64,000 nt of DNA from Oscillospiraceae bacterium (GTDB lineage: Bacteria > Bacillota > Clostridia > Oscillospirales > Ruminococcaceae), in the NCBI GenBank assembly GCA_018110825.1, contig JAGBCL010000052.1:62001-126000 (forward strand). Direction: 5' to 3'. The notes beneath the pieces were generated by a model. That model did not search any database. It saw nothing but the letters and a program-made list of their open reading frames with translations, and was not told the origin of the DNA. Positions 6,984-49,623 of the stretch are shown here, in pieces. Each line of letters begins with the position of its first letter. The stretch's first letter is position 1. The translations under genes were made by a program, and so were the position numbers.

Positions 6984-7014
6984 AAAATTAACTATAAACT
7001 TGGAGGGTTTACCT

Positions 7015-8481
7015 ATGCTTACTGGGGAACTTAAAAATAAAATTGATGCGATATGGGAGATGTTCTGGACGGGCGGTATCACCAATCCGCTGGACGTTGT
7101 TGAACAGATGACATATCTTATGTTTATCCACGACCTTGATGAAGCGGATGCGAAAAAGGTCAAGAGCAGCATAATGCTTGAAATCCCGTACACAAGTATG
7201 TTTGAGGGGCACGACCAATACAAGTGGTCGGTGTTCCGTGACCTGCCTGCGGAGAAGATGTATGAGCTTATGCAGACGGAAATTTTTCCGTTCATAAAGA
7301 ATCTTCACGGAAGCAAGGACAGCACTTACTCAAAATATATGTCCGATGCGATTTTCAAGATTCCTACGCCGCAGCTGCTATCCAAGATTGTTGATGCGCT
7401 GGACGGACTTTACACCGATATGGCGAAGCAGGTTGAGAATGACACCAAGGGCGACGTATACGAAAGTCTTCTTGCCAAGCTTTCTACGGCGGGTGTAAAC
7501 GGTCAGTTCCGTACACCGCGTCACATTATCAGAATGATGGTTGAACTGCTTGACCCTAATCCTGAGGACATCATCTGCGACCCTGCCTGCGGAACATCTG
7601 GCTTCCTTGTGGCGGCGGGTGAATATCTGAAAGAAAAATACAGGGACGAAATTTTCTACAACCGTGAAAAGAAGGCTCACTACAACAACACTATGTTCTA
7701 CGGCTATGATATGGACAGGACAATGCTTCGTGTGGGTGCGATGAATATGATGACCCACGGTGTTGACAACCCGAACATTGATTACCGTGACAGCCTTTCC
7801 GAGCAGAACACTGACACGGCGAAATACAGCGTTATCCTTGCAAATCCGCCGTTCAAGGGCAGTCTTGACGCGGACACGGTTTCCCCTGACCTGCTCAAGG
7901 TGTGCAAGACAAAGAAAACGGAGCTGCTGTTCCTTGCGCTGTTCCTGCGTATGCTGAAAATCGGCGGCAGATGTGCGTGTATCGTACCTGACGGCGTGCT
8001 TTTCGGCTCGTCAACTGCACACAAGGCTATACGCAAGGAGCTTATCGAGAACCATCGTCTTGAAGCGGTAATTTCGATGCCAAGCGGCGTGTTCAAGCCG
8101 TATGCAGGTGTGTCAACGGGTATTCTCGTGTTTACAAAGACGGGACACGGCGGCACGGATAATGTGTGGTTCTATGATATGCAGGCGGACGGCTACAGCC
8201 TTGATGACAAGCGCACGGATGTTCAGGAGAACGACATTCCCGATATTATTGAGCGTTTCCGCAACCGTGACGCTGAGGCGGACAGGGAGCGCACCGAAAA
8301 GTCCTTCTTTGTGGCGAAGTCGGAGATTGTGGAGAACGGCTATGACCTTTCGATAAACAAGTACAAGAAAACCGAGTACAAGCCTGTGGAGTATCCGCCG
8401 ACGTCTGAAATCCTCGCCGAACTTCGTGATCTGCAGAAGCAGATTGACGACGAGTTGGCTGAATTGGAGGGGATGGTGTGA
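7015..8481 (+). CDS. hsdM: Type I restriction-modification system methyltransferase subunit
   Basis: The protein has 488 residues from the ATG at 7015, which has a TGGAGGG site at 7001-7007. Residues 1-130 are the HsdM N-terminal domain; the SAM-binding motif DPACGTSGFL starts at residue 189 and the catalytic NPPF is at 277-280, the N6-adenine methylase signature. With HsdS it methylates adenines in a bipartite target; with HsdR it restricts unmethylated DNA. Its last codons overlap the hsdS start. Codon use is chromosomal and GC-richer than hsdS. Confidence 0.95.
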   Translation: MLTGELKNKIDAIWEMFWTGGITNPLDVVEQMTYLMFIHDLDEADAKKVKSSIMLEIPYTSMFEGHDQYKWSVFRDLPAEKMYELMQTEIFPFIKNLHGSKDSTYSKYMSDAIFKIPTPQLLSKIVDALDGLYTDMAKQVENDTKGDVYESLLAKLSTAGVNGQFRTPRHIIRMMVELLDPNPEDIICDPACGTSGFLVAAGEYLKEKYRDEIFYNREKKAHYNNTMFYGYDMDRTMLRVGAMNMMTHGVDNPNIDYRDSLSEQNTDTAKYSVILANPPFKGSLDADTVSPDLLKVCKTKKTELLFLALFLRMLKIGGRCACIVPDGVLFGSSTAHKAIRKELIENHRLEAVISMPSGVFKPYAGVSTGILVFTKTGHGGTDNVWFYDMQADGYSLDDKRTDVQENDIPDIIERFRNRDAEADRERTEKSFFVAKSEIVENGYDLSINKYKKTEYKPVEYPPTSEILAELRDLQKQIDDELAELEGMV

Positions 8482-36367: not shown

Positions 36368-39300
36368 ATGATTGGGAAAAAAAATCTATTGTCACGTGCT
36401 GCAGCATTTATGGCTGCAATCGCATTTCTGATAACGCTTCTTCTGCTGTTTCCTGCAGGAAGTTTCCGTGTTCATGCGGCTGAGATTTCAGCTGAAGCTG
36501 CAGGCATGAACATTACAGGTTCAATCAATCTGAACGGTGCTCCGCTTGTTGACAATTCAAGTGTCAAGAACGGAGATGTGCTTGATTTGCGAATTGACTG
36601 GAATCTACCTGAAAACTTTACTTATACCGATACCGGCACAACATTCGTTTATGACCTTGCTCCGAAGCTTAACGGTATCACGCTTACTCCAAAAACTGCG
36701 TATGTTGGAAATACCGCTATTTATTCCGTTAAAGATAATATGCTTTATATCCAGCTTCTTGAAGGTCACAGTGACCGTGAAGGTTATTTCAGCCTCAACG
36801 GTACGGTAAACGTTGACGCTTTAAATGAAAATAATAAATTTGACCTTAAATTTATCAATACAACTGCTTCCGTTTTTGTAACTGACCTTACTCCTGAACT
36901 CAAGGCTTACAAATCCGCAGGTGGTATTATATATGACAAGGATTCCCAGACATACTATCAGAAATTTACAATTTCTCTCGAAAGTAAAAATCAGCCTTCC
37001 AAGAATGTAACTGTTACTGACATTGGTGAATCAGGATTCGATTTCAGCAAAATCAAGGATTTTAGTGTTGCTTACGGTGACGGAACTGCTATTCCCGTAA
37101 CTCCTACCAATAATGCTGACGGATTCAGCATCACAATTCCTGAGGTTACCGGTGACCAGTGGAACAACAAGGTAAATATCAGCTACTCTGTTCCTATAGA
37201 TGTTAACGGCGTTATCAATGGAACAGATGGAAAGAAGAATACCGTTACAGCAGCTGCTGCAAATCAGGATCCTGTAACATCTACAGCTGATGCCAATGTT
37301 GCTGCTCCTTCTATCAGCAAGAGCGGCTCATATGATGCTGTAAACAACAAGATTAACTGGACAATTACTGTTAATCCGGGTACGCTTAAGGACAACAATA
37401 TTGATTTTACGGTAACTGATATTCCTGGCACAAATATTACTGCTGATGACCTCAGAGCTGCTTTCGGCGATGATTTGCAGATTTCCAAAAGTGAGCTTAC
37501 TCCCGACAGCAACGGCATATACACTATTACATACTCAACTCCGGTGTCGTCCACAAATCAGACTTCAGATACGTATTACTCAAATTCTGCTTCTGTAAAA
37601 TTTGATGGTCTGCCAGAATACACTTCAAATGAAGCACCGGTTACTATCGAAAAGGAATTCAAAGATTTTGCAAGCAAAAGCTATGGCAGCATAAGCGGAA
37701 ACAGCTTGCCATGGACTATTTCAGTAAAGCTTCCTGCTTCACCTGCAACAAAGATTTCCATTCAGGATTATACAGATGTTCCTGACAAGGTTAAATTTAC
37801 ACATGATATGTTCAAAATCAACGGAACATATACTCTTGCTGCAAATTCAACTGTTTATTCATCTGCGTCAAAGCTTGCTACAGATGTTGGTTACGTCGAA
37901 TATCAGGGCGGCACTATTCAGTTTGTAATTGTTGATCAGGATTTTCTGAGTGCAAATGCAAACGGAGAAGTCAATATTACCTATACAAATGAGCTGCCTG
38001 CTGATTTAACCACCTTAACAAACAGAGCAAACGTTTCTATTGATGTTGACGGAACAACTCTTTCTGAATTTGAAGCTGTAACCTACAGCCGCAGCAGAAT
38101 CGAAAAATATCTTGCGCCTACTGACCAGTTCAATACAAGTGCATATGAATTCCCTGTAGTCTGGGGCATTAAAATGCAGTTTACAGAAAAACTTGCTGTA
38201 GGTGATGTGATTACTGTTACAGATACCCTTCCTGAAGGACTTACCCTTGTTGACGGTGCTTATAAAGTAAGCGGCAGTCAGGACAACGGATATTCCAATG
38301 TTCCTCAGGATTGCATTACAGCTTCTGTAGACAATGCAACAAACACGGTTACTTTCACTGTCACTGTTACTCAGCAGCTTATCAATGAGAGCTATGAAAG
38401 CATTTGGAACAAATATCCTTTGCGAATCGTATATCTTACAACTGCTGACGGCGACAGAACTTCAATCTATCAGAACGTTTCCAAAACATACAACAATTCT
38501 GCATCTGCAACAAAGGAAACCGGAAATAATATTACAGATATGGGAAGTTCTTCCTGCGAGGTGACATTTAAACCTGACGTAAGTAAAGTTGTTACAAAGC
38601 AGGCTGTTGAACATGAGGGTACTCTCACTTCTCCTCCTTATACAACTTACACTGTTGTAATTAACCCTAACTGTGAGGATTTATCACTTGATGATACAAT
38701 TACAGCTACTGACACATTGGGTGAATATCTTACTTTAGATGCAACCTCAATTACGGTTACACCTGCTCCGCCTTCTGCACCTTCGGTAAGCGGAAATGAA
38801 ATAACATTCACACTCAATGACCAGACTGCATACACAATCAGCTATAACGCAACGGTTAAAACTATTTCTACAGATGTTGACAAGACACTTTCTGAAGAAA
38901 GAAAGGAAGAACTGTTCGGAAATACGATTTCTGTAATGTCCACAGCTCAGTCTTCCTATTCAACAATGACTATGCTTGCAAATTATGCTGTTGATGCGGG
39001 ATACTCAAATACTCAGACTCAGGGTTATATCACAATTAAAGGTACAAAATCCTGGACAAGTGATGAATACAACTCAGGTGCTCGTCCGAATTTTATTGAA
39101 ATCACACTTCGTGCTGTATCCACACCTGTAAATGGTGCACCTGTGGAAACATTTATTACCGAAAAGTTTACCCCTGAAAATGATGACTGGGCATATAAGT
39201 TTGAGGACCTTCCTATCCTTTCTACAGACGGCACAGAAAATGTTTACTACATTCATGAAATAATGGCTGACGGATATGACATTGTTTCATATGAAGGTGA

Positions 39301-42300
39301 TGTCAATACAAATAATAATAACGCCATCACAATCAACAAAACTCAATCCGTTTATGACATTGAAATCACAAACGATTTTACTGCAATTGACGAAGAAGTA
39401 GGTTCTCTTACTGTTACAAAGAACTGGGAAAATGACACTGAAGCTGACAGACCTGTTCTTCAGTTTACTGTAACTGACAAAAGCGGAAACTACACTCAGA
39501 CAAAAACTCTCACGGGAAGTTCTGTTACTTTCACAAACCTTCCTCTTTATACTTACTCAAGAGATAACAATAATAATCTTGTAAGAACACCGAGAGAATA
39601 CAAGATTACTGAATCAGTTGTGAACAGTTCAGAAGCTGAAAAGCTTGACCAGTACACTATGACAAAATCATACTCTGAAGAGTATTTTGTCCTCACAAAT
39701 GACACTTCTCTTACTTCCCCGCTCGCTACACCTGTAAATCAGACAATTACCAATACGTTCAACTCTGTTCCTATGACATCTGTTACTGTTACAAAAGAAT
39801 GGGATGACGCTGACAATCAGGACGGTATCAGACCAGGCAGCGTTGTTGTAAAGCTTTTGGCAAACGATGTTGATACCGGAAAAACAGAAACTCTAAACAG
39901 TACAAACAACTGGACTGCTACTTTCAGCAACCTTGAAAAGAAAGACACAAATGGTAATGATATTGTTTATACAGTTGATGAGGAAAATGTTCCAAACGGA
40001 TACGCAAAAACTGTAAACGGCTTTACAATTACAAACAAGCATATCCCTGAGGTAACTTCTGTAAGCGTACTCAAGGTATGGATTGACAACAACGATCAGG
40101 ACGGTTTAAGACCTGAAAAGATTATTGTAAATCTGCTTGCAGATGGAACTGAAATTCAGGAAGTCGAACTTTCTGCCTCAAACAACTGGAGACATGAATT
40201 TACCGACCTGCCTAAGAATAACGATGGCGAAGAAATCGAGTATACAATTTCAGAGGAAACTGTTGATGAATATACTTGCGATATAAGCGGTTCTGCAGAT
40301 GCAGGATACACTATCACCAACAGTCATACTCCCGGTAAAATCAGTATACCTGTCACAAAGGAATGGAATGACGACAATGACCGTGACGGTTTGAGACCTG
40401 CAAGTATTACTGTAAATCTTCTTGCTGATGGTGTAATCAAGAGTTCTCATGAACTTAATTCAAGCAACAACTGGCGATACACATTCCAGAATCTTGACAC
40501 TCACAAGAATGGTAAGAAAATCAACTACACAATAAGCGAAAATGCTATTCCTAATTACAGCGGTGCAATCAGCGGAACTGCTGAAAGCGGTTACACAATC
40601 AAAAACACCCATAAGCCTGAACAGATTTCTGTTGCTGTCACAAAGGTATGGGATGATAATGCTAATCAGGATGGTGTAAGACCTGCGAATATTTCTATCA
40701 ACCTTTATGACAGTGATGATTTGAATACTCAGATTGCAGGTGCGACCCTTTCAAATGCCAATAACTGGACACACACTTTCAATTATCTGCCTAAGTACAA
40801 AAACGGAGGCACTGAAATTGAATATGTAATCACAGAGGTTATGATTGCTGCTGAAAAGAATTACACATCTGTAATTACGGGAGATTACAAGCAGGGCTTG
40901 ACTGTTACAAATACACATACACCTGAAACCATTTCTATTGATGTAGCAAAGGAATGGGATGACGAAAATGACCAGGACGGTATAAGACCTGACAGCGTTA
41001 CAATCAAACTCCTGGCTGACACTGTCGATACGGGTAAAACTATTACCCTTAACGAAGCAGGCAACTGGGAAGGCTCATTTACTGACCTTGACAAGTACAG
41101 AGATGAAGGTGTTGAAATTGTATATACCGTTTCTGAGGAAACTGTAAGCGATTACGATGCACCAATAATAAGCGGCGATTCAGCTAATGGTTTCAATGTT
41201 AAAAACAGCCATACACCTGAAACTGTTTCTATTGCTGTAACAAAGGAATGGGACGATGAAAATGACCAGGACGGTTTAAGACCTGACAGTGTTACAATCA
41301 AGCTTTTGGCTGACACTGTTGATACGGGTGAAACTATTACTCTTAACGAAGCAGGCAACTGGGAAGGCTCATTTACCGGTCTTGCTAAGTACAGAGACAA
41401 GGGTACTGAAATTATTTATACTGTTTCAGAAGATACTGTAGCCGGTTACGATACACCGATAATCAGCGGTAATGCTGCAAATGGTTTTAATGTTAAAAAC
41501 AGCCGTACACCTGAAAAGATTACTATAAGCGGTCAGAAAACCTGGGTAGGCGGCGACGAAAACAATCGTCCGCAGGTTACTGTAAATCTTCTTGCAGGCG
41601 GTAAGAATGTTGCTTCACAGACTGTTTCCGCTCCTGACTGGGAATTTGAATTTACCGGACTTGACAGATACGCTGATGGTGAGGAAATTGTTTACAGTGT
41701 TTCTGAAAATCCAATCGAAGGTTATACTCCATCATATACGGTTGTAGGAAATAATGTTACTATTACCAATACGTATACCCCTGGCAAGACTTTCCTAAAC
41801 GTAACCAAGGAATGGGATGACGCAGGTGACCAGGATGGAATCCGCCCTGATAATGTTACTGTAGAGCTTCTTGCAAACAACACGGTAATCAAAACTCAGG
41901 TCCTCAGTGCTTCCAATAACTGGACTTTCTTCATTGACCTTGATATTGCAGATGCTCAAGGAAATACCATTGTATATTCTGTAAGAGAAAAAGATGTTCC
42001 TGACGGCTATACATCTTCCGTTTCAGGTAACATTGCAAATGGATTTGTTATTACAAACAAACACACACCTGCAACTGTTTCGGTAAGCGGTACAAAAATC
42101 TGGGACGACGTTAATAACTATGACAGAATACGTCCTGCAAGCATTATAGTAAGACTTCTTGCTGATAACAAGGAAGTAAACTACAAGGAAGTTACTGAAG
42201 CAGATGGCTGGCAGTACAGCTTTGATAATCTTCCTAAATACAAAGACGGAACTGAAATTGTTTATAAGGTTACAGAAGATGCTGTCACTGACTATACTAC

Positions 42301-42895
42301 AACATACAGCACCACAAACTACGACATTACAAACACTCATGTTCCTGCAGATGCAGATGAAAAGATTTCTGTTGACATTACAAAAACATGGAATGACAAT
42401 AACAATGCTAACAGAAGACGCCCCGGCACGCTGACAGTAGTCTTGTATCAGAATGGTACTTCCTATAAGACCATATCCGATGAATGGGTTATTAACGGCA
42501 ACACATGGACTTACAGCTTTGATAATCTTCCTAAGTATGATGACAACATGGTGCTTTACACTTACGATGTTATAGAAATAAGCCCATCCGGCTATTCATC
42601 TCAGAAGACAAATGCGGGATACAGCTTCAGTTTTGTAAACAGCTTCATAAGTGTTCCAGAAAACAATCCTGTTGTTCCGAATATCCCAAGCAATCCTTCA
42701 CAGTCAACACCACCTCCTCCGATTGTTACACCTGTTAATCCGAATTATCCTGAAGAAGATGTTTCTTCGGATGCGGGCATAATCGAAGAAGATGACACTC
42801 TCGGTTCAGTTGACACTACGTCCTATTCATATGCTGCAATTCTTCTTGCTGTTACAGCAGGCGGTATTGTAATTGCAAGACGTAGACAAAAGTAA
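36368..42895 (+). CDS. Giant Cna_B-repeat surface adhesin
   Basis: 2,175 residues. A signal peptide (1-38; cleavage near RVHA-AE) leads into an ~850-residue N-terminal region of several isopeptide-type fimbrial/DUF11-like domains. From about residue 890 to 2095 come about twelve Cna_B-type repeats, each beginning like VTKEWDDxxDQDGxRP, with the strand Lys, a central Glu (SEET) and a terminal Asn (ITNxH) that form isopeptide bonds in this family. The C-terminus has a Pro-rich spacer, then one membrane helix (SYAAILLAVTAGGIVIARRR). No LPxTG is present. Likely role: stalk-like adhesin; ligand unknown. Confidence 0.93.
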   Translation: MIGKKNLLSRAAAFMAAIAFLITLLLLFPAGSFRVHAAEISAEAAGMNITGSINLNGAPLVDNSSVKNGDVLDLRIDWNLPENFTYTDTGTTFVYDLAPKLNGITLTPKTAYVGNTAIYSVKDNMLYIQLLEGHSDREGYFSLNGTVNVDALNENNKFDLKFINTTASVFVTDLTPELKAYKSAGGIIYDKDSQTYYQKFTISLESKNQPSKNVTVTDIGESGFDFSKIKDFSVAYGDGTAIPVTPTNNADGFSITIPEVTGDQWNNKVNISYSVPIDVNGVINGTDGKKNTVTAAAANQDPVTSTADANVAAPSISKSGSYDAVNNKINWTITVNPGTLKDNNIDFTVTDIPGTNITADDLRAAFGDDLQISKSELTPDSNGIYTITYSTPVSSTNQTSDTYYSNSASVKFDGLPEYTSNEAPVTIEKEFKDFASKSYGSISGNSLPWTISVKLPASPATKISIQDYTDVPDKVKFTHDMFKINGTYTLAANSTVYSSASKLATDVGYVEYQGGTIQFVIVDQDFLSANANGEVNITYTNELPADLTTLTNRANVSIDVDGTTLSEFEAVTYSRSRIEKYLAPTDQFNTSAYEFPVVWGIKMQFTEKLAVGDVITVTDTLPEGLTLVDGAYKVSGSQDNGYSNVPQDCITASVDNATNTVTFTVTVTQQLINESYESIWNKYPLRIVYLTTADGDRTSIYQNVSKTYNNSASATKETGNNITDMGSSSCEVTFKPDVSKVVTKQAVEHEGTLTSPPYTTYTVVINPNCEDLSLDDTITATDTLGEYLTLDATSITVTPAPPSAPSVSGNEITFTLNDQTAYTISYNATVKTISTDVDKTLSEERKEELFGNTISVMSTAQSSYSTMTMLANYAVDAGYSNTQTQGYITIKGTKSWTSDEYNSGARPNFIEITLRAVSTPVNGAPVETFITEKFTPENDDWAYKFEDLPILSTDGTENVYYIHEIMADGYDIVSYEGDVNTNNNNAITINKTQSVYDIEITNDFTAIDEEVGSLTVTKNWENDTEADRPVLQFTVTDKSGNYTQTKTLTGSSVTFTNLPLYTYSRDNNNNLVRTPREYKITESVVNSSEAEKLDQYTMTKSYSEEYFVLTNDTSLTSPLATPVNQTITNTFNSVPMTSVTVTKEWDDADNQDGIRPGSVVVKLLANDVDTGKTETLNSTNNWTATFSNLEKKDTNGNDIVYTVDEENVPNGYAKTVNGFTITNKHIPEVTSVSVLKVWIDNNDQDGLRPEKIIVNLLADGTEIQEVELSASNNWRHEFTDLPKNNDGEEIEYTISEETVDEYTCDISGSADAGYTITNSHTPGKISIPVTKEWNDDNDRDGLRPASITVNLLADGVIKSSHELNSSNNWRYTFQNLDTHKNGKKINYTISENAIPNYSGAISGTAESGYTIKNTHKPEQISVAVTKVWDDNANQDGVRPANISINLYDSDDLNTQIAGATLSNANNWTHTFNYLPKYKNGGTEIEYVITEVMIAAEKNYTSVITGDYKQGLTVTNTHTPETISIDVAKEWDDENDQDGIRPDSVTIKLLADTVDTGKTITLNEAGNWEGSFTDLDKYRDEGVEIVYTVSEETVSDYDAPIISGDSANGFNVKNSHTPETVSIAVTKEWDDENDQDGLRPDSVTIKLLADTVDTGETITLNEAGNWEGSFTGLAKYRDKGTEIIYTVSEDTVAGYDTPIISGNAANGFNVKNSRTPEKITISGQKTWVGGDENNRPQVTVNLLAGGKNVASQTVSAPDWEFEFTGLDRYADGEEIVYSVSENPIEGYTPSYTVVGNNVTITNTYTPGKTFLNVTKEWDDAGDQDGIRPDNVTVELLANNTVIKTQVLSASNNWTFFIDLDIADAQGNTIVYSVREKDVPDGYTSSVSGNIANGFVITNKHTPATVSVSGTKIWDDVNNYDRIRPASIIVRLLADNKEVNYKEVTEADGWQYSFDNLPKYKDGTEIVYKVTEDAVTDYTTTYSTTNYDITNTHVPADADEKISVDITKTWNDNNNANRRRPGTLTVVLYQNGTSYKTISDEWVINGNTWTYSFDNLPKYDDNMVLYTYDVIEISPSGYSSQKTNAGYSFSFVNSFISVPENNPVVPNIPSNPSQSTPPPPIVTPVNPNYPEEDVSSDAGIIEEDDTLGSVDTTSYSYAAILLAVTAGGIVIARRRQK
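40918..41510 (+). repeat. Two nearly identical tandem Cna_B units (DNA level)
   Basis: Units of about 294 bp at about 40918-41211 and 41212-41510 share long identical stretches (for example AACGAAGCAGGCAACTGGGA). They encode adjacent Cna_B repeats of the adhesin and mark a recent duplication, so repeat number may vary between strains. Confidence 0.8.
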
Positions 42896-42933: not shown

Positions 42934-43620
42934 TTATATACGATATTTGATTTTTACACGTTCAAGCTTTTCACCTAAAGGCTTTGCCATAAACCACATA
43001 AATATACAATTTGAGACTGAATACATTATGGTATGTGGCAAGGCGGTTATAATTGCTGTAAGATAAAGCTCAGCACGGAATGAACCGTCATACCATACTA
43101 CTGTCCATACATCCATAATAAGGGAATAGAAAATTCCTGCAAGTACACCATATACAAGCAAAACTGCCCTATGGCTTTTAAGCGGCTTTGCAAGAATTCC
43201 TGCAATCAAGCCAATCATTCCCCATGCAAGCATCTGAAATGGGGTCCAGGGGCCTTGTCCAAAATAAAAATTTGACAGAAATGCAGACATTGCACCGATA
43301 AGAAATCCTGTTTCACCTCCGAGATAAACTGCAGAAATCACTGTAAGAGCTGTTATAGGTTTGAAAAAAGGTATAAACCTTCCTGCAACGCAAAATGCAA
43401 TGATTACCGCGGCAATAATCATTCTCCGTGAACCTATAGGCTTTTTTTCGTAACCTGCCGCAAACAGAACGAGTGCAAGCAACGCTACCCCAATTGAAAT
43501 AATTATGTGCCGACGTTCGTCGAAGAGAGTTGCACCAAGAACAACAAGCATCGGTACAGCCAGAAACGGAACAACTATTTTTACGGCATTGCGGAGTTTT
43601 TCATTTTCGATACTTATCAA
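42934..43620 (-). CDS. ECF transporter substrate-binding (S) component, probably cobalamin
   Basis: 228 residues with six hydrophobic helices, resembling the CbrT/YpdP-type S component: VLGATLFDERRHIIIS, GRFIPFFKPITALTVISAVY, GPWTPFQMLAWGMIGLIAGI. S components bind the vitamin in the membrane and dock on the shared ECF module. The dedicated T and A genes precede it in the operon, and the operon is under a cobalamin riboswitch, so cobalamin or another corrinoid is the likely substrate. Starts 1 nt from the ATPase gene. CbrT as a B12 S component is known from Lactobacillus. Confidence 0.85.
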   Translation of the reverse strand: MISIENEKLRNAVKIVVPFLAVPMLVVLGATLFDERRHIIISIGVALLALVLFAAGYEKKPIGSRRMIIAAVIIAFCVAGRFIPFFKPITALTVISAVYLGGETGFLIGAMSAFLSNFYFGQGPWTPFQMLAWGMIGLIAGILAKPLKSHRAVLLVYGVLAGIFYSLIMDVWTVVWYDGSFRAELYLTAIITALPHTIMYSVSNCIFMWFMAKPLGEKLERVKIKYRI

Positions 43621-45243
43621 CTATTCCACCGCCTTATTCAGCCTGCAAAGTTCCACTGCATCAGCAATGGAAACAGCATCTCTGTAAACACCTCGGGTCA
43701 TACGGCTGATTGCTGTTGTGTAAAAGTTATTTCCCGAAAAGAATTCCCTTGGAGTATCAGCTGAGACAATTTCTCCTCTGAAAAACATCGCACATCGGTC
43801 TGCACAATCACATGCAAATTCGGTATCATGGGTTACAATTACAATTGTCATTCCGTCCGATTTAAGTCTTCTGAGTATATCCGTAAGCTGATATTTTGAA
43901 TCAGCATCAATCCCCTTTGTTGGCTCATCAAGCAAAAGAAGCTTCGGCTTTGCAGCAAGAACCTTTGCAAGGGCAACAAGCTGCTGTTCGCCTCCTGACA
44001 AGTCATACGGATGCTTGTCCATAAGCTTTTCAAGGTCAAGCGGCAGCATTTCTGCCTCTGATTCTGCACCCTCCAATTCTTCACGAACGGTATTCCTCAT
44101 AAACACGGTCTGAACATCCTGAGGAAGAACAGTCAGACAATTCCGATAAAGGGATTGGTTTTTATACTCTTTAAGTTTTTTTTCGAAAATTTCAACAGTA
44201 CCACTGTAGGGCTTGACAATATTTGATGCAACTGACAATGCTGTTGTTTTTCCTGAACCGTTGCCGCCAAGTATACAAAAAATCTCGTTTTCATAAACTG
44301 TGAAACTCAATCCCCTCAGCACGTCAGGATAATTTCTGTCATATCGGAAATACACATCTTTGAAACACATTGCAGGCTTTTCGGAACAGGCATATTCTGT
44401 TTTCGGAAGTGCTGTTATTCTGTTGCCGAAATTTGTTTCAATAAAATGCCTTCCATCACGAATATCAAGAGGACACTTTCCTCTGCCGTCAACAGCATGA
44501 AAAAGTCTTACGGCGGCAGGCATTCCGCGGAGAAGTCTTTCGTCAAGCTCTCCTACAATTTTTTGCGGTGCATCAAAAGCTTTCACTGACCCATTTTCCA
44601 GCACAAGCAGCTTATCACATACAGTAATTGCATCCTCAAGGCGATGCTCGGAAAGTATAACCGTCAAGGATAATTCACGGTTTATTTTTTTCAAAGTTCC
44701 TATGAATTCTGAGGCAGCAATCGGGTCAAGCTGTGCAGTCGGTTCGTCGAGTATGATAATCTCAGGATTCATCACCATTACAGCTGCAAGACAAAGCAGC
44801 TGCTTCTGTCCGCCTGACAGCTCGGAAACCTTTTTATCATACCACTCTTCTATTCCGAAATATGATGCGGTTTCAGCAATTCTTCCTGCCATTACATTCT
44901 GCGGCAGATTGAGATTTTCAAGCCCGAAAGCAAGTTCATGCCAGACCGTATCGGTTACAATCTGATGTTCGGGATTCTGCATTACAAATCCGATTCCTGA
45001 AGCACTTTTCTCTGCAGTAAGCTTACTGACAGATACACTGTCAAAAAAGATTTCACCGCTTACTTCTCCCACGGGTGCAATTTCACGTTTCAGCAAACGC
45101 AGCAGCGTGGATTTTCCGCTTCCCGTTGCTCCGCAGACAGTTATGAATTCCCCGCTATTTACAGAAAAATTTATATTACTGATTGCCTGAGAATCTGCAA
45201 GAGGATATTTGAAATTCAGATTTTTGACTTTAAGTATTTCCAT
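43621..45243 (-). CDS. Fused duplicated ECF transporter ATPase (EcfA-EcfA')
   Basis: 540 residues holding two complete ABC ATPase domains in one chain. The first has GATGSGKST, LSGGQKQLLCLA and IIILDEPTAQLDP; the second has GGNGSGKTT, LSGGEQQLVALA and LLLLDEPTKGIDA. ECF modules normally use two separate ATPases, so this fusion supplies the heterodimer. GGAGG precedes the start, and the gene overlaps the end of ecfT by 28 nt. Energises uptake by the T and S proteins of this operon. Confidence 0.94.
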   Translation of the reverse strand: MEILKVKNLNFKYPLADSQAISNINFSVNSGEFITVCGATGSGKSTLLRLLKREIAPVGEVSGEIFFDSVSVSKLTAEKSASGIGFVMQNPEHQIVTDTVWHELAFGLENLNLPQNVMAGRIAETASYFGIEEWYDKKVSELSGGQKQLLCLAAVMVMNPEIIILDEPTAQLDPIAASEFIGTLKKINRELSLTVILSEHRLEDAITVCDKLLVLENGSVKAFDAPQKIVGELDERLLRGMPAAVRLFHAVDGRGKCPLDIRDGRHFIETNFGNRITALPKTEYACSEKPAMCFKDVYFRYDRNYPDVLRGLSFTVYENEIFCILGGNGSGKTTALSVASNIVKPYSGTVEIFEKKLKEYKNQSLYRNCLTVLPQDVQTVFMRNTVREELEGAESEAEMLPLDLEKLMDKHPYDLSGGEQQLVALAKVLAAKPKLLLLDEPTKGIDADSKYQLTDILRRLKSDGMTIVIVTHDTEFACDCADRCAMFFRGEIVSADTPREFFSGNNFYTTAISRMTRGVYRDAVSIADAVELCRLNKAVE

Positions 45244-46088
45244 TTCAATTCCTCCTTTATGTTTATAATTACGGGCAGCAGAATCATTACTCCATATGAG
45301 ATGTAGGCAGCAGCAAGCTTCATACTGATTTCAGGTACGGAAAAATACGGATAAAATTCAAACTTTGCACCGACTATTCCGTACAAGGCTACTGCTGAAA
45401 AAATCGGTATCATGCAAAGTAAAATCACATCATCGATTTTAAAATGGAACAACGAAAAACGTGAGCGTTTTCCTGTTCCGTAGCCCCTTGCTGTCATACT
45501 GTCAGCGGTAATAATTCCATTTTCCAATGCCCAGGTTATCATTATTGAAAACACACGCATACCGCCTTTGAAGCTGTCAATTATGTTGTCATCCTTATAC
45601 AAACCCAATGCCTTCTGACTTGCCTGAACCTTTTTCAGCTGCACACTGAAAAGTGAAACATATCGCAATGCCATCGAAAGTATCAATGCAAGTTTCGGAG
45701 AAAACGCACCAAACAGATATAACAATTTGTCACTGGTCATCACAATTGTAAAGGAACGGAACCAATACAGAACTGCTACAACAGTTGCTGAGGTGCATAC
45801 ACCGTAGATAAATGCTTCAAGGGTTATTGGGTTGTTGTTTATTACAAACAGCACCGTTGCACCGTTATGCGAAACAAGCGGATTGACAACTGCCATTACT
45901 GCAAAAAGCAAAAGGGAAAACAAGTGAGTTGATACTTCCTTTTTTTCATTTGTCATCAGGAACAGAACAATTGCCCCAATAAGCGAAATTGCTGAAATTA
46001 CAGGGTTTGCACTGAACATTGCTATGCTTGTAACAGCAACAAAATATACTGATACCACTATTGGATTGCTGTCTGCAAATGTTCGCAT
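45216..46088 (-). CDS. ECF transporter transmembrane (T) component
   Basis: 290 residues with about six hydrophobic helices and the EcfT coupling region ending AxG: TADSMTARGYGTGKRSRFSLF, the conserved ARG motif that contacts the ATPases, and an amphipathic helix before it (KKVQASQKALGLYKDD). It belongs to the CbiQ family. Located between the intrinsic-factor-like gene (11 nt gap) and the ATPase gene (overlap). Confidence 0.93.
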   Translation of the reverse strand: MRTFADSNPIVVSVYFVAVTSIAMFSANPVISAISLIGAIVLFLMTNEKKEVSTHLFSLLLFAVMAVVNPLVSHNGATVLFVINNNPITLEAFIYGVCTSATVVAVLYWFRSFTIVMTSDKLLYLFGAFSPKLALILSMALRYVSLFSVQLKKVQASQKALGLYKDDNIIDSFKGGMRVFSIMITWALENGIITADSMTARGYGTGKRSRFSLFHFKIDDVILLCMIPIFSAVALYGIVGAKFEFYPYFSVPEISMKLAAAYISYGVMILLPVIINIKEELKWKYLKSKI

Positions 46089-46099
46089 GTTACCCCTCC

Positions 46100-47662
46100 T
46101 TATTTCAAATCTTTTCCCATTTCAAGGCTGTATACCCATTTTATTCTGTCACCATCAGCAAGTGTGTAGGAATTGCAGCCAACGGAGGCTTCTTCTCCGT
46201 TGACGAAGTACATCCAGCCTGATAATTCTCCGAAATCAAATTCATAAATATAGTTCATTCCCGAAATGTAGCTTCCTGAAAATTCTGTCTGTATATTGTT
46301 TTCACGGCAAGCTTCAACGAGTATATCGTAAACTGTTTCGCCTGTTTCAAATGCATACTCCGTTTCTTCAAGAATTACTCCGCTTTCCGGAATATAATCT
46401 TCCTTACCTGCAACTGTATCACATCGTATTTCTATTGTTACTGTGCCAATAGGATTAGACTTTTCCGAGGCTGTTCCATAGTAATCCTCTGCTGTTGAAA
46501 AATCTGTAAATAGCACGATTGTTATGGCTGCAGCAGCAAAAATTGTTATAGCGATAAAATTTTTCCTGCTGCACTTTTTCGTCAGAAGCAATATAAGGCA
46601 TGCCAAAACGGTCAACGCACCGATAACAACGCAAGCAAGCGGTTTATAGGACTTGTTTTTTTCAGCTGTATACGTTGTTTGTGCTTCAGAAATGCTTGTT
46701 GCTTCCGTTGTTAATGCTGTTACTGTGGCTGTTGTTTCCGTGTCTGAATCATCTGATTTGTCTGTAATAAACAAACTTTCCTCGTTTTCATAAGCAACAG
46801 ATGCCATGAAAGCCTGAACAGTTGAGGTATGATTTGTTGTACCTCCTATTTCATGACAATAGCTTCCATCATTAAGGCGGAATTGTTCCAAGGCGGAAAA
46901 AAGTGTGTTTCCGTTTTTTATGAAACGACTGTCTGTTTCAACATCAATGTCAAGTTCGGAAAGTGCAATAATTACTTGTGAGATACTTTCGGAAACCTCT
47001 TTTCCCATTGACTTGTATCCGCCGTTTTCAAGTTGTTTATCCGAAAGGAACTGCACTGCCTTATCAATTGCTGTTGTTGCTTGCTCATACTGTTTGTAAT
47101 GCGGTGCAAGTGCCTGAATTGTCATTGCTGTAACATCAGGGTCGCCGTATTCACCCATTACAGCCCAGCCACCGTCTGCAAGCTGCATTGAAATAATTTG
47201 CTCTATTACATTTTCAGAGGTAAATGACGTACTTGTACAACCGTTGTTAAGCAGGTGCAGGCCGTAAACGTAACTCATCAGTCCTTGTTCACCAATTGAA
47301 TTTTCCATTGTTTCCGCAATATAATCCGAGTTGCTTCCCACAGTAAGAAGTGCAAGTGCATACTTCTGACGTGAGGTTGCGGAACGGATATCGTTATTGT
47401 TCAGATAAGTTTCCAGCGCAGATTTATAAGCCGCAAAATCATACTCACCGTTTTTGCTCAAGGCAATTACGTACCACTCTGAACTTGCTCCTGCATTTTC
47501 AGTAAGTACAGTATCAATCCATTCCTGAATGTTTTCTGCTCCGCTTTCACTAAGGTTATACTCAATGATTTCCGCTGACAGCAACTGTTCCGCATATACC
47601 GCAAATGTAAGCAGAAATACAGCAATTATGCAGGAAATTACAGCTGAAATTTTACTTTTCAT
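46100..47662 (-). CDS. Membrane-tethered intrinsic factor/transcobalamin-like protein
   Basis: 520 residues from ATG 47662. Signal peptide 1-24, then an alpha/alpha toroid of the prenyltransferase/terpene cyclase type (about 30-290, with repeats such as QLADGGWAVMGEYGDPDVTA and LENGGYKSMG), a Thr-rich linker, a hydrophobic hairpin (about 341-361 and 369-385) and a C-terminal DUF4430 domain (406-515, GWMYFVNGEEASVGCNSYTL). Toroid plus DUF4430 is the layout of animal intrinsic factor and transcobalamin, which clamp cobalamin between the two domains. Here both domains would face outside, joined by a membrane hairpin. Same operon as an ECF transporter under a B12 riboswitch. Binding is inferred. 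Confidence 0.85.
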   Translation of the reverse strand: MKSKISAVISCIIAVFLLTFAVYAEQLLSAEIIEYNLSESGAENIQEWIDTVLTENAGASSEWYVIALSKNGEYDFAAYKSALETYLNNNDIRSATSRQKYALALLTVGSNSDYIAETMENSIGEQGLMSYVYGLHLLNNGCTSTSFTSENVIEQIISMQLADGGWAVMGEYGDPDVTAMTIQALAPHYKQYEQATTAIDKAVQFLSDKQLENGGYKSMGKEVSESISQVIIALSELDIDVETDSRFIKNGNTLFSALEQFRLNDGSYCHEIGGTTNHTSTVQAFMASVAYENEESLFITDKSDDSDTETTATVTALTTEATSISEAQTTYTAEKNKSYKPLACVVIGALTVLACLILLLTKKCSRKNFIAITIFAAAAITIVLFTDFSTAEDYYGTASEKSNPIGTVTIEIRCDTVAGKEDYIPESGVILEETEYAFETGETVYDILVEACRENNIQTEFSGSYISGMNYIYEFDFGELSGWMYFVNGEEASVGCNSYTLADGDRIKWVYSLEMGKDLK

Positions 47663-48455
47663 TTTTCTTTGTAAGGAAAGCAGCTGCAAGTGCAATTGCT
47701 GTTACTGCAACAATACCGCTTGTACTGTTGCCTGTTGCAGGTGCAGTTGTTTCGTTTTCGGAGGAAGCAGTTACGGTTACCTTGCAAACGGGAGGAACAA
47801 GTGTCTGTGTTTCGGAGACAGCGCTGATTACATACTCGCCTGCTTCATCAAACTTGATTTCCACCTTACCCTGAGAGTCAGTTGTGAAACTTGTTTTTTC
47901 GCCGTTTATGGTAATTACAGCGTCACTTGCAAACAAAGTAACGGGGTTCCAGTCTGAGTCATAGCCTGCGTAGGAAAGGGTAAGTGCAATTTCTGCACCT
48001 GTATCAACTTCGGCCGAGTCGATATCAAACCAGCTGTACACATCAGACCATGCTATAAGGTCGCTGTATGCGTAAGCGTTGATATAATCTCCCTCTGCAA
48101 TTGTGTCGCTAAGGCTCATTGCAGAAGCATTATTCTTGTAATAACCGTAGCTGCCACCATTTTCTACACCCCAGAGCTTATTGAGTGAAAGACCATACTC
48201 TGTTTCACCCGATGCAAAGCCTGCTTCTGCACCGCCGTCATACTTAGCATCGTGAGCAGCAAAAAGTGCATCGTTGATTGTGAGCGCACCGTCAGCATCA
48301 ACGTCTGTAACGTTGATTTTTTTCTGTGCAAGAGGAAGTGCCCCTGTGCCGTCGGAAATTGTTACATAAACATACGCCGCTTCAGTGGCATAAGCTGTAA
48401 AAGCCATACTGAATGTGAGTGCGATTGCGGATACTGCTGCGATAATTTTTTTCAT
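47652..48455 (-). CDS. Secreted DUF4430-like surface protein of the B12 operon
   Basis: 267 residues from ATG 48455 (TGGAG upstream); the longer frame would cross the riboswitch terminator. Signal peptide 1-25 (cleavage near AYA-TEA), a DUF4430-like domain (28-140; LWGVENGGSYGYYKNNASA and EGDYINAYAYSD), an Ig-like strand domain (145-225), and a C-terminal anchor: APATG, one hydrophobic helix and KKNEK. APATG could be a variant sortase signal. It is the first gene behind the cobalamin riboswitch. Likely a corrinoid-binding or docking protein on the cell surface; overlaps the next gene by 11 nt. Confidence 0.8.
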   Translation of the reverse strand: MKKIIAAVSAIALTFSMAFTAYATEAAYVYVTISDGTGALPLAQKKINVTDVDADGALTINDALFAAHDAKYDGGAEAGFASGETEYGLSLNKLWGVENGGSYGYYKNNASAMSLSDTIAEGDYINAYAYSDLIAWSDVYSWFDIDSAEVDTGAEIALTLSYAGYDSDWNPVTLFASDAVITINGEKTSFTTDSQGKVEIKFDEAGEYVISAVSETQTLVPPVCKVTVTASSENETTAPATGNSTSGIVAVTAIALAAAFLTKKNEK

Positions 48456-48486
48456 TGTAATTACTCCATTTCCATAAAAAATAAAA

Positions 48487-48510
48487 GCCCCTTCACTGGT
48501 CTGAAGGGGC
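48487..48510 (-). terminator. Riboswitch-controlled terminator
   Basis: On the minus strand GCCCCTTCA (48502-48510) pairs with TGAAGGGGC (48487-48495), followed by TTTTATTTTTT. It lies between the riboswitch and the first gene, so corrinoid binding probably favours termination. Confidence 0.9.
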
Positions 48511-48638
48511 AAATTGATTACACGGCAAAAACAGCCTTGAAAAGTGTAGAAATTCAAAGCTAATAGCGACATCGGAATGATTTCGCTTTGTGATAATCGG
48601 TTGCATTGCTTCACGTCCCAAGCTATTTAAACCTCAAA

Positions 48639-48793
48639 ACACGGCAGGTCTCCTGACTTATGACAAAGCATCGCTGCGTGGAACACGCCTTCTCAAGCGT
48701 TTGCTCAATGGCATTTGTGCTCCTCTCGTCAAATACAGTAATGGCGGTTGCTCCGGATTCTCACCGGATTCCCTATTAATCTACGCGTCACAT
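48639..48793 (-). ncRNA. Cobalamin riboswitch
   Basis: Read on the minus strand, the conserved elements appear in order: AGGGAATCCGGTGAGAATCC, then GGAGCAACCGCC, ACTGTA, the B12 box-like GCCATTG near 48716, and the closing AAGTCAGGAGACCTGCCG at 48641-48658. This is the adenosylcobalamin class. It shuts down the downstream operon when cobalamin is plentiful, here through the terminator at 48487-48510. Confidence 0.96.
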
Positions 48794-48846
48794 TGCATTG
48801 CAATCTGATTTCGAACCGTATTTCGTATCGTATTCAATTGTATATA

Positions 48847-48875
48847 ACTATAACACCAATGACGGAATTTGTCAA
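48847..48875 (-). promoter_or_regulatory. Promoter of the B12-riboswitch operon
   Basis: TTGACA (48870-48875), 17 bp, TATAGT (48847-48852) on the minus strand, about 50 nt before the aptamer. Confidence 0.85.
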
Positions 48876-48927: not shown

Positions 48928-49623
48928 TTATGCCTTTTCGTTTTCAAGGTACTTGTATACAACAGCTGCGAGTGCTGCACCAACAAGCGGACCTACAATA
49001 AATACCCATACGCAAGCGATAGCGTCTGCGTTGCCTGTGATTGCTGCAACGATTGCAGGGCCGATGCTTCTTGCAGGGTTAACGGATGTACCTGTAAGGC
49101 CGATTCCGAGAATGTGAACGAGTGTAAGTGTAAAGCCGATTACAACGCCTGCAAATGAGCCGTGGCCAGCCTTCTTGGATGTTACACCGAGGATTGTAAG
49201 AACGAAAATGAATGTGAGAACAACCTCAACGAGAAGACCTGCAACAGCACTTCCATTTACGCCTGCAAGGCCATTTGAGCCAAATCCACCTGTCTTGTCC
49301 TCAACACCGCCGAGAGAGAAAATTGCAGCGAGGACACCTGAGCCAGCGAGTGCACCTAGGCACTGGGAAACAACATAACCGATGAAGTCCTTACTTGTCA
49401 TTCCTCCGCTCATAAGAACACCGAGGGAAACCGCAGGGTTGATGTGACAGCCTGAAATATTGCCCACGCAGTAAGCCATACCTACAATTACAAGACCAAA
49501 AGCAAATGCGGTAAGGATATATCCGCCGCCGTTTACAGCGTCACAGCCAACAAGCATTGCTGTTCCGCAGCCGAGAATTACCAGTACCATTGTGCCGATA
49601 AATTCTGCTATGTACTTCTTCAT
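48928..49623 (-). CDS. Aquaporin / MIP family channel
   Basis: 231 residues, six helices with the two half-helix motifs SGCHINPAVSLGV and SVNPARSIGPA, giving the two NPA boxes. Length and the residues around the boxes point to the AqpZ (water) rather than the GlpF subgroup. Start MKKYIAEFIGTMVLVILG. It is its own transcription unit, ending in a terminator just before the riboswitch operon. Transport substrate (water or small neutral solutes) inferred from family. Confidence 0.94.
   Translation of the reverse strand: MKKYIAEFIGTMVLVILGCGTAMLVGCDAVNGGGYILTAFAFGLVIVGMAYCVGNISGCHINPAVSLGVLMSGGMTSKDFIGYVVSQCLGALAGSGVLAAIFSLGGVEDKTGGFGSNGLAGVNGSAVAGLLVEVVLTFIFVLTILGVTSKKAGHGSFAGVVIGFTLTLVHILGIGLTGTSVNPARSIGPAIVAAITGNADAIACVWVFIVGPLVGAALAAVVYKYLENEKA

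Follow-up and report, generated by a model that had tools for sequence, protein, structure and literature searches.

The present analysis concerns a 64,000-nucleotide stretch of contig JAGBCL010000052.1 from an Oscillospiraceae bacterium (assembly GCA_018110825.1), referred to below as the window, and within it an operon of five tightly packed genes behind a regulatory leader that runs on the minus strand from its promoter to the gene for a transporter S component (48875 to 42934). Gene content and order, a riboswitch match, predicted folds and conservation in relatives make it highly probable that this operon encodes a B12-repressed system for corrinoid acquisition, in which a clamp composed of an alpha-toroid and a DUF4430 domain (gene 2) and another surface protein (gene 1) act together with a CbrT-type importer of the energy-coupling factor (ECF) class. 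A preliminary description of the locus had proposed that the bacterium captures corrinoids outside the cell with a transcobalamin-like protein and hands them to its ECF importer; the computational results support this overall reading well, and the design is striking but foreseen.

Regulatory leader and transporter genes

The leader begins with a sigma-70-type promoter, TTGACA-17-TATAGT (48847..48875, minus strand; 11 of 12 consensus bases), which is the best-scoring of nine promoter candidates in the window. It continues with a cobalamin riboswitch aptamer of the RF00174 family at 48626..48835 (99.2 bits in Rfam, gathering cut-off 31.5), also on the minus strand, which is the sole Rfam match to reach the gathering score in the window and the sole RF00174 match in the host genome (96% complete). 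Between the riboswitch and the first ATG (48455) lies an intrinsic terminator on the same strand, a GC-rich hairpin followed by a T-run (48487..48510), and this location suggests a transcriptional OFF switch. All three elements had been recognized in the preliminary description, with the riboswitch at 48639-48793, and were recovered here. Because promoter-type sites (9 observed vs. 12.8 in shuffles) and terminator-type sites (8 vs. 5.0, standard deviation 2.6) are not clearly in excess in the window, and the strongest hairpin of the window (48916-48887) is part of the end of the upstream gene, both assignments are argued from position and not from count.

The five open reading frames had likewise been correctly described as closely packed on one strand: genes 1 and 2 overlap by 11 nt, gene 2 is separated from the T gene by an 11-nt gap, the T and A-A' genes overlap by 28 nt, and the A-A' and S genes directly abut. 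The last three encode the T component (45216..46088; Pfam CbiQ, E 2.8e-7), a fused A-A' ATPase of 540 aa (43621..45243; 336 bits with the ECF ATPase equivalog, cut-off 315) and an S component of 228 aa with a TTG start (42934..43620; ECF-ribofla_trS, E 1.6e-10), in agreement with the earlier assignments. Thus, T, A, A' and S are encoded together at the locus, as an ECF transporter with a dedicated module.

The earlier assignment of the S component to the CbrT type also held. With the single sequence as the query, CbrT (6fnp) was retrieved first (E 9.3e-7), and a profile of 24 S proteins, five of which were taken from the short loci described below, detected the same chain in the PDB with E 2.2e-32, against E 0.012 for the next chain (4hzu). 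The window protein aligns with CbrT from residue 65 onward; the N-terminal part before it holds an additional pair of hydrophobic segments. ECF-CbrT of Lactobacillus delbrueckii is an established ATP-driven B12 importer; according to the consulted part of its description, CbrT and other S components are predicted to rely on a common module, and its gene sits in an nrdJ-cbrS-cbrT-pduO arrangement (PMC5997447; PDB 6fnp). The S family is the same in the operon analyzed here, whereas the dedicated module, the surface proteins and the additional hydrophobic pair on S are points of difference.

The toroid/DUF4430 protein and gene 1

The product of gene 2 (46100..47662, minus strand), delineated with Pfam and an AlphaFold2 model, consists of an N-terminal hydrophobic helix, a toroid (approximately residues 28-300), a disordered linker, a transmembrane hairpin (342-360 and 368-386) and a DUF4430 domain (441-512). 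The DUF4430 domain is unequivocal in Pfam (PF14478; E 8e-18, 65.1 bits vs. a cut-off of 23.8) and the toroid is detected weakly (Prenyltrans, E 4e-4, 20.3 bits, under the cut-off of 26.5). The model, built with 28 aligned sequences (mean predicted local distance difference test score, pLDDT, 87.9; predicted template modeling score, pTM, 0.60), comprises a helical toroid up to about residue 300, the disordered linker, two helices (340-360 and 366-385) and a beta-grasp domain, in which a beta-hairpin (strands 459-462/465-469) follows helix 444-454, as in the SLBB transcobalamin-like clade.

The fold match to transcobalamin implied by the preliminary description was found in a Foldseek search of the PDB: ranks 1-15 for the gene 2 model are all intrinsic factor, transcobalamin or haptocorrin (E 8.1e-8 to 1.6e-6; alignments of 520-559 columns), and the next class in the list, terpene synthases, appears with E 1.1e-4. 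The isolated beta domain of human transcobalamin is at rank 40 (E 2.3e-3, template modeling (TM) score 0.71 by target). At the sequence level, a DUF4430 profile matches haptocorrin (E 0.0025) and TC-2 (E 0.28); its best match is PDB 3u7z (E 4.7e-11), the Ruminococcus gnavus protein RUMGNA_00854, which shares the DUF4430-type domain and differs in being a stand-alone protein, titled a putative metal binding protein. A profile of gene 2 itself yields 26 sequences in all, namely terpene cyclases, prenyltransferases, macroglobulins and a few others.

To delineate the conserved features of these proteins, we use a scan of a GTDB-species collection in which 531 relatives were confirmed and the best 80 kept; all counts out of 80 below refer to these loci, which are silent on more distant forms because similarity to gene 2 was the basis of their selection. 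In all 80, the toroid and the DUF4430 domain are separated by two or more hydrophobic segments. Given that the segments are paired, with a charged loop between them, they probably form a hairpin that would leave both the toroid and the DUF4430 domain outside the cell. In several relatives (e.g., L047, L048, L052, L058, and L063), the toroid and DUF4430 are encoded by separate neighboring genes, which supports a working partnership of the two. The animal B12 carriers are soluble, unanchored proteins that are not known to have a hairpin between their domains. The order of the domains, toroid and then beta-grasp, is the same in intrinsic factor, transcobalamin and haptocorrin; the transmembrane hairpin between them and the adjacent importer genes set the bacterial protein apart.

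Gene 1 (47652..48455, minus strand), the first gene of the operon, encodes a putative surface protein of 267 aa. Its N-terminal hydrophobic helix is followed by a beta-grasp domain, which carries a DxDxDG loop, and by an Ig-like domain; the C-terminal tail resembles an anchor (PATGN, a hydrophobic segment and KK). The loop is present in gene 1 of 68 of the 80 relatives and a P-x-T/S-G motif in the tail of 44. In the model (pLDDT 85.7), the beta-grasp domain carries hairpin strands 80-85/88-94 after helix 60-71, that is, the beta-hairpin insert after the helix that is a trait of the SLBB transcobalamin-like clade. In the Foldseek list, 5no0, the beta domain of transcobalamin, comes at rank 41 (E 1.4e-3, TM-score 0.64 by target, root-mean-square deviation (rmsd) 3.6), behind mostly Ig-like domains, which correspond to the second domain of the protein, and Rib or phi29 prohead domains. 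The preliminary description had presented gene 1 as encoding a secreted, DUF4430-like protein; the surface location remains likely and the resemblance in fold stands, and the family assignment is not supported by Pfam. PF14478 gave no match to the gene 1 protein of the window and is not among the 25 of 44 Pfam families listed for 20 aligned gene 1 members. Classification of gene 1 as a Pfam DUF4430 protein was therefore rejected; profile comparison did not lend it convincing support either (hhalign probability 65, with the signal-peptide region among the 74 columns aligned), and its kinship to the transcobalamin beta domain is retained as a resemblance of predicted fold only.

Conservation of the operon and linkage to riboswitches

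Matches to gene 2 were detected in 46 of 150 genomes, counting that of the host. The best 80 relatives are, by their titles, mostly Oscillospirales and Ruminococcus, many of them from the ruminant gut, and they include seven named strains of Ruminococcus flavefaciens that are not marked as metagenome-assembled. All 80 loci have gene 1 ahead of gene 2, and 74 of them also encode the full set of T, A-A' and S on that strand. In the remaining six, the contig end cuts the locus in four (L153, L154, L173, and L184), one has no T, A or S (L135), and one has T and S with no ATPase found (L170). Beyond this set, a plasmid record of Latilactobacillus curvatus (L194, 2844-8486) carries an operon annotated as LPXTG-protein, DUF4430, T, ATPase and S, in which the toroid protein is LPXTG-anchored, and its products are matched by the profiles for toroid, DUF4430, T, A and S. 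A search of plasmid proteins with gene 2 gave four records, none of which covers 80% of gene 2.

The co-occurrence with cobalamin riboswitches extends to most of the relatives. Among the 56 of the 80 loci that were scanned with all of Rfam, 34 have a match at the cut-off, to RF00174 in 24 and to the adenosylcobalamin (AdoCbl)-II family, RF01689, in 10. The total of 39 matches are all on the operon strand and upstream of gene 1 or T, with gaps of 27-542 nt for 37 of them; in L120 the match overlaps an alternative start located upstream, and in L127 the distance is 1.1 kb; in five of the 56 loci (L149, L150, L152, L155, and L164), one riboswitch precedes gene 1 and another precedes T. Furthermore, a home-made covariance model derived from the ten AdoCbl-II matches, the E-values of which are rough and among the matches of which are its own training sequences, detected 50 matches with E no greater than 1 when run on 85 sources; of these, 49 precede the operon on its strand at a distance of up to approximately 1.1 kb, and the remaining one is located elsewhere (L176, E 0.21). 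By the combined evidence, a predicted cobalamin-type riboswitch of either class is located upstream in 68 of the 80 loci: the 34 found by the Rfam scan, three on previously scanned contigs (L110, L111, and L141), 27 detected by the model only (26 directly and L181 through L037), and four whole-genome RF00174 matches placed by coordinates on the assumption of the same contig (L135, L153, L154, and L186). For nine further relatives, Rfam gave a match at the cut-off in L035 alone and the AdoCbl-II model added L037, L041, L044, and L045; neither detected a riboswitch in L034, L036, L040, and L043.

The R. flavefaciens operons were at one point considered switchless, given that the whole-genome RF00174 matches lie elsewhere by coordinates. 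This was rejected, because the all-Rfam scan revealed AdoCbl-II riboswitches in six of the eight loci, and the home-made model detected them in the other two (L119 and L133). A separate observation in the genome of one of these strains, MA2007 (the genome of L130), is a class-I riboswitch before a lipoprotein-like gene (L190, G170:C19, ~7000-7740, minus strand), which, from its sequence, we take to resemble CbiK-type chelatases.

A second, shorter arrangement (L087-L104) consists of a cobalamin riboswitch, a small DUF4430 gene and a CbrT-like S gene, with no toroid. Among the 18 loci of this type, the S gene is adjacent in 14 and no T gene was found beside them; an ATPase match in L092 is on the opposite strand, no S was found in L095, L096, and L102, and the sequence of L100 ends too soon. 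PDB 3u7z looks like a representative of this short type. Across the 150 genomes, at least 40 of 113 DUF4430 places are located no more than 8 kb downstream, on the same strand, of a riboswitch among the matches listed, compared with an expectation of ~0.17 (roughly estimated for a uniform distribution and 2.3 Mb per genome), and in other orientations no additional DUF4430 place was seen up to 12 kb from a listed riboswitch match.

As for the immediate neighborhood in the window, a gene for an MIP-family channel (48928-49623, minus strand) is located directly upstream of the operon promoter, and downstream a gene for a surface protein of 2175 aa with 11 Cna_B stretches (36368-42895, plus strand) is convergent with the operon.

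Predicted function, alternatives and implications

The host genome encodes two proteins with MetH-type domains and one B12-binding radical SAM protein; a fourth match, below the cut-off, is an IMP dehydrogenase. CbiD was not found in this genome, and the host appears unable to make corrin. There is also no FecCD (BtuC-type) permease in the host genome (BtuM- and BacA-type importers were not searched for) and no second related S gene; each single absence is soft because the assembly is 96% complete. The apparent lack of corrin synthesis and of a BtuC-type importer implies that the cell probably needs the system for its MetH-type methionine synthase. BtuB/BtuFCD and the Bacteroides surface B12 lipoproteins likewise capture corrinoids at the surface prior to import, with other folds and another transporter class; the lack of FecCD distinguishes the present host from the BtuB/BtuFCD pattern. 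A tetrapyrrole nutrient is also imported by an ECF transporter in Staphylococcus lugdunensis, where the ligand is different, namely heme (PMC7299338, consulted in part).

We propose that the riboswitch permits read-through of the terminator when the cell is short of cobalamin. The gene 2 protein would be held in the membrane by its hairpin and expose both the toroid and the DUF4430 domain, an SLBB beta-grasp, and these would probably close over a corrinoid in the manner of the two domains of transcobalamin. The product of gene 1, which adds another beta-grasp domain at the surface, probably aids capture or closes the complex. The corrinoid could then be handed over to the adjoining CbrT-type S component, with import powered by the dedicated T/A-A' module, and would serve the MetH-type methionine synthase.

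Several observations weigh against this reading. The gene 2 model superimposes poorly on transcobalamin as a whole (rmsd 13.6-16.4 A; TM-score by query 0.31-0.39, the range of the top 15 matches; pTM of the model 0.60), so that the placement of the domains differs, and transcobalamin is not among the sequences that the gene 2 profile retrieves up to E 10. The hairpin divides the toroid from the DUF4430 domain, which are thus not directly linked in a soluble protein; of the two-domain transcobalamin design invoked in the preliminary description, the succession of toroid and beta-grasp is shared, and the direct linkage seen in the animal proteins is not. With respect to regulation, 12 of the 80 loci lack a counted riboswitch (contig ends truncate L147, L148, and L171, and a 30.3-bit match in L170, just below the cut-off, was left uncounted), the all-Rfam scan did not cover 24 of the 80, and for 73 of the 113 DUF4430 places there is no riboswitch within 8 kb among the matches listed. 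The L. curvatus operon gave no match to the AdoCbl-II-type model, and an Rfam scan was not made there. Finally, neither PF01923 nor PF02572 adenosyltransferases were found in the host genome, which bears on the source of AdoCbl for the riboswitch and on what it senses in this cell, and CbiD is present in three of the 13 relatives with a full-length gene 2 in the alignment (G039, G048, and G141); thus, corrin auxotrophs are not the only carriers of the system.

The last observation also bears on the identity of the ligand, because it is compatible with import of an incomplete or different corrinoid, such as cobinamide, cobyrinic acid or pseudo-B12, instead of complete cobalamin. Gut corrinoids are diverse. 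Moreover, representatives of the BtuFCD and CbrT families have been shown to import both B12 and cobinamide, according to the consulted part of a gut genome survey (PMC6593275). The lack of CbiD and of both adenosyltransferase families in the host itself fits the use of complete cobamides (CobS/CobU-type salvage genes were not searched for), and on balance we regard a different corrinoid as unlikely, albeit the most serious of the alternatives. A far less probable scenario is that the surface proteins are adhesins, or that the toroid is an enzyme, merely co-transcribed with a CbrT transporter: the Ig-like domain and the anchor-like tail of gene 1, as well as the terpene cyclases retrieved by the gene 2 profile, would be in line with it, but both genes are conserved together with the CbrT-type S gene and B12 riboswitches, the gene 2 model matches B12 carriers over its whole length, DUF4430 alone is also paired with CbrT-like S genes under riboswitches, and in the five loci with double switches gene 1 has a riboswitch of its own, separate from that before T. 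Least probable of all, and set aside given the CbrT-like S component and the absence of CbiD from the host genome, is transport of cobalt or another metal, which is suggested by the CbiQ/CbiO-type names, with the match of T to the cobalt transport family CbiQ, and by the title of 3u7z. CbiQ is a generic T family, the S profile detects CbrT far ahead of any other PDB chain, and cobalt uptake under a B12 switch would be of little use to a cell that seems not to synthesize corrin.

The corrinoid acquisition system favored here was largely anticipated in print; the preliminary description had remarked that its parts were partly foreseen. In the consulted sections of their study, Burroughs et al. 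(2007; PMC1796856) described bacterial toroid-SLBB fusions, paired extracellular SLBB proteins and operons with CbiO and CbiQ, noted that such bacteria usually lack key enzymes of B12 synthesis, predicted B12 scavenging, and proposed a bacterial, Gram-positive origin for animal transcobalamin. The operon in the window shares with that clade the toroid and beta-grasp fusion, the CbiO/CbiQ-like genes and the second extracellular SLBB protein; the CbrT-type S gene and the membrane hairpin are not named in the sections consulted, and the word riboswitch is absent from the main text. The additions to the 2007 prediction are the linkage to riboswitches of two classes, including double switches, the CbrT-family S component, the hairpin of gene 2 and the test of the predicted fold. 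In the part of the literature searched, which did not extend to subscription papers and preprints, this study was the one direct precedent, and no experimental test of such an operon was found. It is conceivable, at somewhat less than even chances, that gene 2 is a membrane-tethered bacterial transcobalamin that directly loads its dedicated CbrT-type ECF transporter, so that this importer would possess an extracellular clamp of its own, forms the same sandwich around the ligand as intrinsic factor, and represents the bacterial lineage that gave rise to the animal proteins.

In the consulted part of the gut genome survey (PMC6593275), known B12 transporters accounted for only nearly half of the B12 auxotroph variants, and B12 transport in numerous gut genomes was called an open problem. 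The operon described here is a complete candidate B12 uptake system in many gut Oscillospirales, many of them from ruminants, and in seven strains of R. flavefaciens, and it provides a concrete system in which the 2007 proposal on the Gram-positive bacterial origin of the animal B12 carriers can be tested. If the proposed function is correct, substrate-capturing surface proteins would be added to ECF transport.

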